Shown: piece after piece, positions 35,905-42,338 of the stretch | How positions within the stretch are numbered: position 1 is the stretch's first letter | How the letters are laid out: every line of letters begins with the position of its first letter | Source: Gammaproteobacteria bacterium | GTDB taxonomy: Bacteria > Pseudomonadota > Gammaproteobacteria > GCA-002705445 > GCA-002716945 | Assembly: GCA_029246085.1 (NCBI GenBank) | Contig: JAQWOB010000037.1 | Location: 1-48,679 of the forward strand | Direction: 5' to 3' | Length of the DNA: 48,679 nucleotides | Notes under the pieces: model-generated | Database searches by the model: none | Seen by the model: the letters and a program-made list of their open reading frames with translations, nothing else | What the model was told of the DNA's origin: nothing | Position numbers and translations under genes: made by a program

Positions 35905-37080
35905 TTATTTATTCTCCAAATCTTTGAGTGCTTCCACAGCTTTATTAGCAGCTTCCTCTAGTGTTGATGCTTCGATATAATTAATTTTACTATCCTTTAG
36001 AATTTTCATACCTTCGTCAACATTTGTTCCTGCAAGTCTAATAACTAATGGTTGTTCAATAGTAATTTGACCCAGCGCATCAACGATACCTTGGGCAACC
36101 CAGTCACATCTATTGATTCCAGCGAAAATATTAATCAAGATGACTTTAACTTTGGGATCTCCAGATATAAGTTTAAATGCTTTGACAAATTTTTCTGGTG
36201 TTGCACCACCACCTACATCTAAGAAGTTTGCAGGCTTACCTCCAGCTAATTGAATCATGTCCATTGATGCCATTGCAAGTCCAGCACCGTTAATAATATT
36301 ACCGATATCACCATCTAGAGCTATGTAATTTAAACCTCTGTCATGAGCATAAGTTTCTTTAGAGTCCTCTTGTGTTTTATCTCTCAGTTCTGCAATATGC
36401 GGAATTCTATATAAAGCATTATCATCAAATGACATCTTACAATCTACTGCGAGAATATGATCATCTCCAGTAAGAACTAGTGGATTAATTTCTACCATTG
36501 TTGCATCTGAATTAGTGAATGCTTTATAGCATCCTAATATCGCTGCTGCACACCTCGATATTGCTTTAGCTTCTAGGCCTAGCGCAAATGCGATTTCTCT
36601 TGCCTGGAAACTCTGCATTCCAACTGCAGCTTCAATTTTTACTCTTATAATTGATTCTGGTTTGTCTTTCGCAATTTCTTCTATGCTCATTCCACCTTCT
36701 GATGAAGCCACAACCATAATGCTTTCTGTGCTTCTATCAAAAACTAGTCCGAGATAATATTCTTTTTTTATATCAGACGCTTCTTCGATATAAATTCTCT
36801 GAACTGTTAAACCTTCTGGTCCAGTTTGATTAGTAACTAAAGTTTTACCGAGTAATGTATTTGCAGCATCAGAAACTTCTTTATGGCTCTTGCAAACAAT
36901 AATTCCTCCGGCTTTGCCTCTAGCTCCAGAATGAATCTGGGCTTTTACTACCCACATATCACCACCAAGCTCTGTTGCTCTATCTTTAGCATTTTCTGGG
37001 CTATATGCTATTCCACCTTTTGGAGTTGCTACTCCAAATTTTGCCAATATTTCTTTTGCTTGATATTCATGTATATTCAT
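35905..37080 (-). CDS. mtkA: Malate-CoA ligase, beta (SucC-like) subunit
   Basis: This is the ATP-grasp subunit of malate thiokinase. The 391-residue protein begins [20 protein letters not shown] and has the nucleotide-binding GARGKAGGI region, [21 protein letters not shown] and [13 protein letters not shown]. The last motif, with INRCDWVA, matches MtkA rather than SucC as I remember them. Start overlaps the mcl stop as TAATG and mtkB follows after two bases, giving equal expression of the two subunits. Confidence 0.88.
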
Positions 37081-38021
37081 TATTTCTTCGACTGTATTAG
37101 ATTATTTATATTTATGATATTTTCAGCCATTTTTTCTGATGCTGCATCTATCATCCTTCCGTCTAGTTGAGCAGCGCCCTTGCCTTCAGCGGCAGCTTTC
37201 GCTAACTCTTCTATAATTCTATGAGCTTTTTCAACTTCCTTTACAGGAGGAGAAAATACTGTATTGGCATGCTCAATTTGAGAAGGGTGTATTGCCCATT
37301 TACCTTCTATACCAATAGCAGCCCCTCTTTTTGCTGCATCAATATAACCCTCGGGATCATTAAAATCACCAAATGGTCCATCAATTGGTCTTAAACCATA
37401 TGCACGACATGTAGCTACAAGTTTAGCTAATCCATGATGCCACTGATCTCCAGGATAATCTGGATTTAATCCACCAATTACTACAGTTCTAGCTCTTAAG
37501 CTAGCAGCATAATCAGCTACTCCAAAATGAAGTGCTTCTAATCTTTTAGATGATTGGGCTATTTCTTCAATATTCACCATTCCTAGAGCGGTTTCGATTA
37601 AACATTCCAGTCCAACTTTATTTTTTAATCCTCTTTCTTGTTCAATCTGGTTTACCATGCAGTCCACCATATAAACATCACCTTGAACGCCAACTTTGGG
37701 TATTAGTAAAGTATCAACAAATTCACCTGCCTGACACATTATCTCCACAACATCTCTATACATATAATGTGTGTCTAAGCCATTAATTCTGACAGATATA
37801 GTTTTGCCATTTCCTCTCCAATCCATTTCTTTAAGGGCCTTTATGACGTTCTCACGCGCTGTTACCTTGTCGTTAGGAGACACTGCGTCTTCTAAATCCA
37901 AGAAAATAAAATCAGCTGTAGAATTTAATGCTTTTTCAAACATTTTTGGCGAAGATCCAGGTACGGCTAGTTCGCTTCGTTGGACTCTTGCTCTTGCATT
38001 TTCATAAGATGTATGGCTCAT
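37080..38021 (-). CDS. mcl: L-malyl-CoA / beta-methylmalyl-CoA lyase
   Basis: Mcl cleaves malyl-CoA to acetyl-CoA and glyoxylate, the step that closes the serine cycle. The 313-residue CitE-like TIM-barrel protein has [36 protein letters not shown], the metal ligand region [12 protein letters not shown] and KWAIHPSQI. The long C-terminal tail ([19 protein letters not shown]) is a hallmark of the malyl-CoA lyase branch. It is the first gene of the mcl-mtkA-mtkB-tatD-queH operon and diverges from yadG. Confidence 0.93.
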
Positions 38022-39850: not shown

Positions 39851-39854
39851 CTAA

Positions 39855-40033
39855 CTCATGAAGTTGGGAAAGTCAGTAAATCAATTCTGACGCTGCCCCC
39901 GCAACGGTATAATAGCCCGAATGCCAACAAGATGAGATTAAAAACCCAAAAAGCGGCGGATGCTTTTACAGTGGGTATAATCACTATAATTTAGTGGTTT
40001 GCTTTGTATGTGTCCCCTTTTTATACAAGGAGT
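39855..40033 (+). ncRNA. Cobalamin (B12) riboswitch upstream of btuB
   Basis: The spacer before btuB holds the B12-box sequence GCTGCCCCCGCAACGGT, followed by AGCCCGAATGCC, the most conserved part of cobalamin riboswitches. Supporting pairings can be seen: CTCAT (39855) with ATGAG (39932), GTTGG (39863) with CCAAC (39924) and GTCAG (39872) with CTGAC (39887). A downstream hairpin AAAAGC-GGCGGAT-GCTTTT (39949-39967) presents GCGG that can kiss the CCGC of the core. CCTT (40016) can pair with the AAGG of the btuB ribosome site at 40027, suggesting translational repression by B12. The 5' arm is shorter than usual. Confidence 0.92.
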
Positions 40034-40036
40034 GAT

Positions 40037-41809
40037 ATGTTTACAATCAAGAAAATATTTATAATAATCATTCTATTATTTAGTAATATAATTTATGCGG
40101 AATCAAATCTTAATGAAATCTTAGTAAGTCCAGAGCAAAGAAGTGCAACAATTTTTGACTCTCTTAATTCTGTAGAAGTTATAACTTCAGAGGATATACA
40201 AGCATTAGGTTATTCAACTATTGATGAAATCTTAAGTCACTCAAGTTCTATAAGTATTGGAAGCAATGGTGGGCATGGTCAGACTAAATCAATATTTATG
40301 AGAGGAACTGAAAGTAATCATACTAAAGTTTTAATCAATGGAGTTGAATTAAATCCTGGAACACTTGGTGTGCCTTCAATTCAACACATTTCTGTAGAAA
40401 TGTTAGATAGAATAGAAATATCAAAAGGCAGTATGTCTACACTCTATGGGAAAAGTACCATTGGTGGCGTAATAAATATCATTACAAAAAAAGATATCGG
40501 TTCAAATGAAGGAAAAATATATATTGGAACTGGGCGAGATGAGACTAATAAGGTTGGATTTCAAAAGAGCTTTAGTCTTAATAATCATAATTTATCAATT
40601 AATTTCATGAATACTGAAACTGATGGATATAAAGCCCAAGTCGCCTCAACCAAGAATCATGGTTATGAAAATAAAAATATAGATATTTCTTATAACTTTA
40701 GTACTGGAAAGAATATTTTTGATTTTAATTTCTACCAAAGCGATGGTAATGTTGAATATGATAGCTTTGGAAGTAACTTAAACCAAGATTATAAAGATGC
40801 TCATTTAAGGCTGGCATGGAATAGAAAATATGATACGTCAGGATCTAAACTAGTTTTTATTCAAAAACAAAATAAAATTAATCAAAATTCATCTGGTGCA
40901 ACAGATTATACTCATACAGAAAATTATCAAATTAATTTTGAAAAAAATTATTATGATCTAAATGGAACCAATACGATATTAGGTGCAATGTACACGGGCG
41001 AAGCTTTATATGAATTATCATATGGGACAAAATTTAATAAAAGCAATACAATTATAGAATATTATGCTCAGTCAGAATACTACACAGGTAATACATTGCT
41101 CAACATTGGATCAAGATATATAAATCATAGTCTATATGGTGGTTTTTTAACCGGTAACCTCAATGCTGGATACAATCTAAGTAATAAGTCTAAAATAATT
41201 GCTGGTATAGGCAAATCCTTTAGGTCGCCAGATGGTACGGACTTATATGGTTATGGTGGAAACCCCAATTTAGAGCCTGAAGAATCTATTTCGAGAGAAA
41301 TTTCTTTTAAATATAAAATAAATAATGCTTCTGGTCTTATCTTTACTCTATTTAATAATAATATAACAAATCTTATTGAATCTGATGGATCAATAATGCA
41401 AAACATTAATAGAGCAAAAATTGAGGGATTAGAGTTTAGTATATATAACTCTTATAATAAATTTAATTACTCATTTGATTATAGTTATATTAAATCTAAA
41501 GATTTAACGAATAATGTCGATTTATCCAGAAGACCTAGTAATAAGTTAGTTAGCAGGATTAATTATAATCATGACCTAAACAATACATTTAGCTTATCAA
41601 CAATATCTGAGACAAGTAGTGATAACTCTATTTATGATACACATCAATTGGGTGGTTATACGAGATTTAATGCGACATTTTTAAGAAAAGTGAGTAACTA
41701 TAGCTTTCAATTTAAATTGAATAATATTTTTGACAAAAAATATAGGAAAGCTCACAATTACAATAGCGAAGGAAGATCCTATAGCGCAAGTATATCTAGG
41801 AGTTTTTAA
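40037..41809 (+). CDS. btuB: TonB-dependent cobalamin receptor BtuB
   Basis: This 590-residue outer-membrane receptor takes up vitamin B12. I start it at ATG 40037, after AAGGAG, because a signal peptide begins there (MFTIKKIFIIIILLFSNIIYA); the track start at 40004 lies in the riboswitch. A TonB-box-like LNEILVS follows, then the plug domain (IDEILSHSSSIS, IFMRGTESNHTKVLING, IEISKGSMSTLYGKSTIGGVINI) and the barrel with C-terminal ...SASISRSF. The upstream riboswitch makes B12 the likely ligand. The next gene, two bases away, is a probable inner-membrane partner. Confidence 0.93.
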   Translation: MFTIKKIFIIIILLFSNIIYAESNLNEILVSPEQRSATIFDSLNSVEVITSEDIQALGYSTIDEILSHSSSISIGSNGGHGQTKSIFMRGTESNHTKVLINGVELNPGTLGVPSIQHISVEMLDRIEISKGSMSTLYGKSTIGGVINIITKKDIGSNEGKIYIGTGRDETNKVGFQKSFSLNNHNLSINFMNTETDGYKAQVASTKNHGYENKNIDISYNFSTGKNIFDFNFYQSDGNVEYDSFGSNLNQDYKDAHLRLAWNRKYDTSGSKLVFIQKQNKINQNSSGATDYTHTENYQINFEKNYYDLNGTNTILGAMYTGEALYELSYGTKFNKSNTIIEYYAQSEYYTGNTLLNIGSRYINHSLYGGFLTGNLNAGYNLSNKSKIIAGIGKSFRSPDGTDLYGYGGNPNLEPEESISREISFKYKINNASGLIFTLFNNNITNLIESDGSIMQNINRAKIEGLEFSIYNSYNKFNYSFDYSYIKSKDLTNNVDLSRRPSNKLVSRINYNHDLNNTFSLSTISETSSDNSIYDTHQLGGYTRFNATFLRKVSNYSFQFKLNNIFDKKYRKAHNYNSEGRSYSASISRSF

Positions 41810-41811
41810 TA

Positions 41812-42327
41812 ATGAAGGTTAATTTAATAATACCAATAATTCTTTTTGTTTTACTTGTACTATCAAGGATGATTACTGATATTCCCAATTTCACAGCTAC
41901 AATAGCCCTAGTAATGTTTACCGGATATTTAATTCAGAATAGACTTTTAAGTATTTTGGTTATATTAATTTCCCAAATTGCCAGTGATTTATATCTAGGA
42001 ATTTATTCATCTATGATATTTGTATATGCTGCATATATTTCTATAGCACTACTGAGCCCTATCATGATGAAGAAAATGAATACTAAATCTATAGTCTTAT
42101 CGTCTATTATTTCGCCATCGATATTTTTCATTATAAGTAATTTTGGCGTATGGTTGATGGGTTCAACGTATACCTTTAACCTATCGGGTCTAATAGCATG
42201 TTATATAGCAGGTATTCCATTCTTTGACGAATCATTAATATCAACTATTTTATTTGCACTTACAATATTCTCGATAATGAAGTTCATACCGAAAGAAACA
42301 AAAGAGATTATTTTAATTAAAAAATAA
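41812..42327 (+). CDS. DUF6580-family membrane protein, candidate B12 uptake
   Basis: This 171-residue protein has about six helices and the pattern I associate with DUF6580: NFTA (26-29), SDLYLG (58-63), NFGVWLMG (110-117) and GLIACYIAGIPFF (126-138), including one conserved-looking cysteine (C130). Such proteins resemble ECF-type S components. It starts two bases after btuB and so shares the B12 riboswitch transcript; no btuC, btuD or btuF is in the window. I infer that it moves cobalamin or a precursor over the inner membrane, comparable in size and setting to solitary BtuM. Confidence 0.8.
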   Translation: MKVNLIIPIILFVLLVLSRMITDIPNFTATIALVMFTGYLIQNRLLSILVILISQIASDLYLGIYSSMIFVYAAYISIALLSPIMMKKMNTKSIVLSSIISPSIFFIISNFGVWLMGSTYTFNLSGLIACYIAGIPFFDESLISTILFALTIFSIMKFIPKETKEIILIKK

Positions 42328-42338
42328 TCTCTTTTTTT
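42301..42338. terminator. Terminator shared by the btuB operon and nrdB
   Basis: A perfect 14-bp stem, AAAGAGATTATTTT with AAAATAATCTCTTT, encloses a six-base AATTAA loop and is followed by a T run. It overlaps the last codons and stop of the DUF6580 gene and lies just past the nrdB stop on the other strand, so it can act in both directions. Confidence 0.88.

Follow-up and report, generated by a model that had tools for sequence, protein, structure and literature searches.

A role in B12 import is inferred for DUF6580 (Pfam PF20221), a small membrane protein family without an assigned function: it is likely the missing inner-membrane B12 importer in the bacterium studied here and in many others, including ultra-small bacteria that lack an outer membrane, although both transport and cobalamin binding are inferred. 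The gene lies in the window (the whole stretch of DNA analyzed, 48,679 nucleotides), which is contig 7 of a 960-kb genome that is 91% complete, and it follows a btuB-like gene. We assign a probability of about 0.77 to the reading that the BtuB-like receptor and DUF6580 together make up a minimal but complete route of cobamide uptake, controlled by the B12 riboswitch, transport again being inferred. The sequence-only reading of this DNA had already suggested the missing transporter, and the suggestion is supported by riboswitch linkage, absence of known permeases, B12-related neighbors, and predicted fold. The operon, the riboswitch with its genome-wide uniqueness and conservation, the absence of known permeases, the fold, and the cross-phylum B12 neighborhood were all computed.

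Operon Structure and Riboswitch

The features of the operon are as follows.

39852-39934, + strand: AdoCbl-II (cobalamin) riboswitch aptamer (Rfam RF01689)
40014-40032, + strand: probable expression platform, CCCCTT (40014-40019) against the Shine-Dalgarno sequence AAGGAG (40027-40032), as read from the sequence
40037-41809, + strand: btuB-like gene for a TonB-dependent outer-membrane receptor (PF00593, PF07715)
41812-42327, + strand: gene for the DUF6580 protein (PF20221), 171 aa, with six transmembrane helices and a predicted S-component fold
42300-42335, both strands: two-way A/T-rich hairpin terminator, with a 15-bp stem and flanking T/A runs

The cobalamin riboswitch core that had been recognized by eye was identified by covariance-model search as a member of the AdoCbl-II class (49.2 bits against a gathering threshold of 36.5; E 5.2e-9). 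It is the only Rfam match within the window, as well as the only AdoCbl-II match in the genome, and it begins 1 base past the stop codon of the upstream nodJ-like gene. CCCCTT and AAGGAG are paired in the predicted fold, and masking of the Shine-Dalgarno sequence in this way would be consistent with control of translation, but the fold has only a slight advantage over shuffled sequence (z only -1.5).

The receptor has Plug and barrel domains (Pfam), and its start is likely the ATG at 40037, given the position of AAGGAG and the presence of a signal peptide, rather than the TTG at 40004 in the ORF list. Its earlier designation as btuB holds in part: the protein is a TonB receptor whose best NCBIfam model is TIGR01779 (TonB-B12; 249 bits, E 8e-74), but it falls short of the trusted cut-off of this BtuB equivalog model (599.7). 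The name therefore rests partly on the riboswitch and operon context, and we refer to the receptor as BtuB-like. The TAA of its gene ends at 41809 and the ATG of the DUF6580 gene follows at 41812, in agreement with the two-base spacing originally described. A single terminator does close the unit, overlapping the end of the DUF6580 gene and being shared with the convergent nrdB; its stem has z-scores of -4.7 (+ strand) and -6.3 (- strand), from which we infer that it is two-way. It was not detected by a G+C-based scanner.

Conservation and Absence of Known Permeases Within the Order

The operon was traced through 25 genomes of the order, all of about 1 Mb. DUF6580 was identified in 21 of them and an AdoCbl-II riboswitch in 20, exactly one each; both were present in all 11 of the more complete genomes. 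In every genome with both (19/19), the riboswitch is upstream of DUF6580 on the same strand, at about 2.0-3.6 kb, with btuB between the two in the order loci that were fetched. A riboswitch search with 1.5-kb flanks was empty, the aptamer being some 2 kb upstream, and was replaced by a genome-wide scan. The gene order across the order is malyl-CoA lyase-like, nodIJ-like ABC exporter, riboswitch, receptor, DUF6580, nrdB. The whole arrangement is kept, unrelated neighbors included, and conservation inside the order is therefore weak evidence when taken alone. As a separate observation, a gene for the beta subunit of malate-CoA ligase (above the cut-off of NF010647) adjoins a CitE/malyl-CoA-lyase-like gene at positions 35905-38021 of the window; malate-CoA ligase and CitE-like genes would represent a serine-cycle-type or glyoxylate-assimilation module in a genome of ~1 Mb.

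The window was said to lack btuCDF, which is correct, and the genome also lacks it at the level of FecCD. A genome-wide check for BtuCDF and ECF had been proposed: FecCD (BtuC-type) permeases were found in 0/25 genomes of the order, vs. 13/14 controls, and CbiQ/EcfT in 0/25, vs. 10/14 controls, such that no ECF partner was identified in the order.

DUF6580 in Other Pseudomonadota and Other Phyla

DUF6580 is rare in the phylum, matching in 6 of 399 genomes, with four matches above cut-off including that of the window. The three confident members outside the order (one from another family of the same class, and two from other families of the phylum) all have the arrangement riboswitch, TonB receptor, DUF6580, the riboswitches being RF00174 (117.5 and 98.3 bits) and RF01689 (71.9 bits).

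For the other phyla, 80 DUF6580 loci were fetched from among the matches listed, a sample biased toward members similar to the query. The loci represent Gammaproteobacteria, deltaproteobacteria, Bacteroidota, Balneolia, Planctomycetota, Acidobacteria, Neomarinimicrobiota, Omnitrophota, Elusimicrobia, Spirochaetota, and several CPR groups. A genome-wide search of 50 sampled genomes with DUF6580 gave 56 RF00174 matches. RF00174 alone misses AdoCbl-II riboswitches, and because the first cross-phylum count thereby missed CPR cases, RF01689 scans were added. A cobalamin riboswitch was found within about 4 kb of DUF6580 in about 23 of the 50 genomes (on the strand of DUF6580, 17 upstream and four just downstream; on the opposite strand, two), vs. 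a chance expectation of about 0.2 (Poisson chance < 1e-30). In roughly half of the sampled loci, there is no nearby riboswitch. The association with riboswitches, for which a survey of other genomes had been suggested, thus recurs with wide phylogenetic spread.

Known permeases are scarce in these genomes as well: strong FecCD matches occur in 8/50 and CbiQ in 8/50, with neither in 36/50. Partial and very weak FecCD matches (E 1e-4 to 1e-13) were excluded as BtuC. The scarcity of FecCD relative to the controls (13/14) has a p of about 2e-7, with the caveat that many of the genomes are incomplete and the controls few. A complete btuCDF, together with no riboswitch link of DUF6580 elsewhere, would have refuted the original proposal; both halves came out opposite.

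In the tally of adjacent same-strand genes (Pfam), TonB receptors are found upstream of DUF6580 in 8/51 cases and downstream in 4/51, cobalamin adenosyltransferase (PF01923) downstream in 6/51, CobO/BtuR in one case upstream and in one downstream, and DUF4430 upstream in four cases. Other neighborhoods were also observed. In five Neomarinimicrobiota/FCB loci (L083, L093, L100, L103, and L123), DUF6580 is preceded by an OB-fold/HD-domain protein and followed by a ~517-aa protein without Pfam domains, with no riboswitch found close upstream (Rfam). Diphthamide-synthase-like proteins (PF01902) adjoin DUF6580 in four loci (e.g., L102:5264-5962), and this subgroup may have a role related to B12.

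CPR Loci and B12 Use

The CPR loci place DUF6580 beside genes of B12 use. NrdJ, the AdoCbl-dependent RNR (called by TIGR02504 above cut-off), is encoded with a PduO-type adenosyltransferase, DUF4430, and DUF6580 in L101 (2697-6650); with a CobA-type adenosyltransferase, riboswitch, DUF4430, and DUF6580 in L110 (2131-6519); and with CobO and DUF6580 in L074 (111-4202). NrdJ is also upstream of DUF6580 in L069, L088, and L092, and riboswitches lie just upstream of DUF4430 and/or DUF6580 in L069, L071, L088, L092, and L110. DUF4430 is the C-terminal domain of the transcobalamin-family B12 carriers of animals (PMC4350170), and it may serve as a surface B12 catcher. These operons of NrdJ, adenosyltransferase, DUF4430, and DUF6580 resemble a complete unit for the uptake and use of B12. 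Because CPR or CPR-like cells have no outer membrane, they have no BtuB; that DUF6580 is nevertheless tied to coenzyme B12 use in these cells is an argument for the association with B12 being a property of DUF6580 itself.

Closer to the window, the purpose of B12 is less clear. In the sister genome G014 (99% complete, searched whole), there was no match to E. coli MetH, MetE, MetF, MetA, QueG, or BtuR, nor to E. coli CobT, CobS, CobU, BtuC, BtuF, or SbmA, nor to several PduO/CobO queries, while control genes were found. With no homologue of E. coli SbmA found, BacA/SbmA was rejected as an alternative importer in G014. Neither G000 nor G014 has a passing match to a B12-binding domain, and the only ribonucleotide reductase of G014 is a class I enzyme, as in the window. 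G014 retains the riboswitch, BtuB, and DUF6580 despite having no recognized B12-dependent enzyme; either it has an unrecognized cobamide enzyme, or its B12 need is a remnant. Its methionine supply is puzzling, with no MetH, MetE, MetF, or MetA recognized. Other genera carry B12-binding radical-SAM genes. In two genomes of a sister genus (L141, G020:C5; L139, G022:C4), btuB and DUF6580 are separated by an antisense gene for a radical-SAM protein of ~535 aa that contains a B12-binding domain, and a close relative of this protein (L142) is present on a small contig in a genome of the window's own genus.

B12 riboswitches also control transporters of cobalt and of precursors. Since the substrate of DUF6580 is inferred only, the protein could instead handle a different molecule related to B12 (for example, cobalt, dimethylbenzimidazole/alpha-ribazole, or an incomplete corrinoid) and not complete cobamides. 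We consider this unlikely: uptake of cobalt or of a lower ligand would be useless in G014, where no cobS, cobT, or cobU was found; the steady partner of DUF6580 is a TonB receptor, a receptor type used for large substrates; and the partners in CPR are an enzyme that uses finished coenzyme B12, an adenosyltransferase, and a transcobalamin-like protein.

Family, Fold, and Conserved Residues of DUF6580

The window protein is a clear member of DUF6580 (127.5 bits against a cut-off of 27). The family was named in no paper that we found in a literature search that excluded subscription literature and preprints; the name "BtuN" of annotation papers was considered, and could not be tied to the family.

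AlphaFold (AF2) models of the window protein (pLDDT 92) and of a canonical member, L051 (pLDDT 97), are six-helix bundles. When the two models were compared with the PDB (Foldseek), the leading matches were the ECF S-components FolT, ThiT, PanT, and RibU, with probabilities of up to 1.00, TM of about 0.6-0.66, and weak E-values (0.06-1); no competing fold was convincingly matched by either model in this search, and BtuM and CbrT were absent among the best 50 fold matches listed. DUF6580 is thus predicted to have the ECF S-component fold, meeting the membership test for this fold, albeit with weak E-values. At the sequence level, a narrow profile (the order plus the three outsiders) had a single PDB match, 6FNP (E 5.5e-5), which is ECF-CbrT, a B12-specific transporter (PMC5997447), and alignment of a wider DUF6580 alignment with the CbrT stretch (hhalign) gave P 2e-5 over 70 columns. 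The wider profile A4 had zero PDB sequence matches; the sequence kinship with CbrT is therefore weak, and is treated as a lead only.

Among 75 members, N26, D59, F105, and N110 are invariant, and R19, Y72, G112, W114, Y120, and P136 are nearly so. Positive charges are located at both termini and in loops 2 and 4, with almost none in loops 1, 3, and 5; by this positive-inside pattern, loops 1, 3, and 5, which hold the conserved motifs, are placed at the periplasmic face. Substrate binding by S-components occurs at that face. The suggestion that C130 is a cobalt ligand was not borne out. Cys is found at this position in only 55/75 members (otherwise S, A, T, or V), with Ala in one riboswitch-linked member, and C130 sits at the start of helix 6 in the AF2 model. 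In BtuM, the cobalt ligand Cys80 lies in loop 3 (PMC6072759); loop 3 of the window protein (residues 61-67) holds no Cys, and therefore no equivalent of Cys80. C130 was rejected as cobalt ligand on both grounds, being neither invariant nor in the region expected from BtuM.

The S-component fold also serves receptors (PMC11109136), CbrT requires its ECF module for transport (PMC5997447), and no energy source is apparent for DUF6580. It is accordingly conceivable, if quite unlikely, that DUF6580 is a non-transporting accessory with this fold, such as a cobamide receptor, sensor, or modifier (e.g., for decyanation). This would not account for the genomes (36/50 with DUF6580, and 25/25 of the order) that lack both known permease types, in which the cobamide must still get across by some means; moreover, BtuM and some BioY proteins demonstrate that lone S-components can transport (PMC6072759; PMC11109136). 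That DUF6580 is merely a bystander sharing the btuB operon of a streamlined genome, as the gene order conserved across the order with unrelated neighbors might suggest, is very improbable and already contradicted by the links to riboswitch, TonB receptor, adenosyltransferase, and NrdJ that recur independently in other classes and phyla.

Proposed Mechanism and Comparison With Known Systems

The best reading of DUF6580 is as a solitary cobamide importer of the S-component type, similar to BtuM in its working but of a different family, with transport inferred, as are the substrate, direction of transport, energy source, and mode of switching. By the proposed mechanism, the BtuB-like receptor would carry cobalamin or another cobamide across the outer membrane, and DUF6580 would capture it at the periplasmic face by way of loops 1, 3, and 5 (R..PHPPNFTP, SDLxLG, and NFGVW..Y, respectively). 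The cobamide would then cross the inner membrane through or with DUF6580, without an ATPase or ECF module, as proposed for BtuM; given that there is no ECF module in the order, DUF6580 would function by itself, like BtuM. In the presence of ample cobamide, the riboswitch would shut the operon, probably by occluding the ribosome-binding site of btuB. Trapping through adenosylation would be in keeping with the many loci that have a neighboring adenosyltransferase, an enzyme that G014 appears to lack.

BtuM of Thiobacillus denitrificans is a solitary S-component-like B12 transporter (PMC6072759). Like DUF6580, it is a small six-helix inner-membrane protein that has the S-component fold and is associated with btuB in genomes lacking both BtuCDF and an ECF module; the genomic setting of DUF6580 therefore fits BtuM-like solitary uptake, although uptake itself is inferred. 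Unlike DUF6580, BtuM has a solved structure, yet it was not retrieved from the PDB by DUF6580 profiles (A1 at E <= 1 and A4 at E <= 10), so that membership by sequence is not met, and DUF6580 is far more widely spread, CPR included. CbrT, the S-component of ECF-CbrT from Lactobacillus delbrueckii (PDB 6FNP; PMC5997447), resembles DUF6580 in fold class, size, and B12 role, and shares with it the motifs PN..P and S-(D/N)-x-x-LG in the sequence match. The sequence similarity is marginal, and CbrT needs an ECF module, whereas genomes with DUF6580 are mostly without one (42/50 lack CbiQ). BtuCDF, a FecCD-type ABC importer of B12, does the same job downstream of BtuB but is an unrelated type of protein.

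A lone S-component-like B12 importer is already known in BtuM; it is the DUF6580 family, its breadth, and the CPR setting that appear to be new. It is probable, if less secure than the reading of the operon itself, that DUF6580 proteins are unrecognized and widespread lone S-component-type cobamide importers that replace BtuCDF from Gammaproteobacteria to Bacteroidota-related lineages and CPR, working by an undescribed ATP-free mechanism, and that the CPR members feed a B12-dependent RNR with DUF4430 as surface catcher.

How B12 enters through the inner membrane of bacteria that have BtuB but no BtuCDF is an acknowledged gap (PMC6072759), much of which would be filled by a widespread, riboswitch-linked family. 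A DUF6580 importer would give CPR a route for the cofactor of DNA-precursor synthesis, and would provide a second family, besides BtuM, in which to study transport by a lone S-component without an ATP-driven module. DUF6580 would also be of use in predicting, among uncultured bacteria, those that rely on other organisms for B12.
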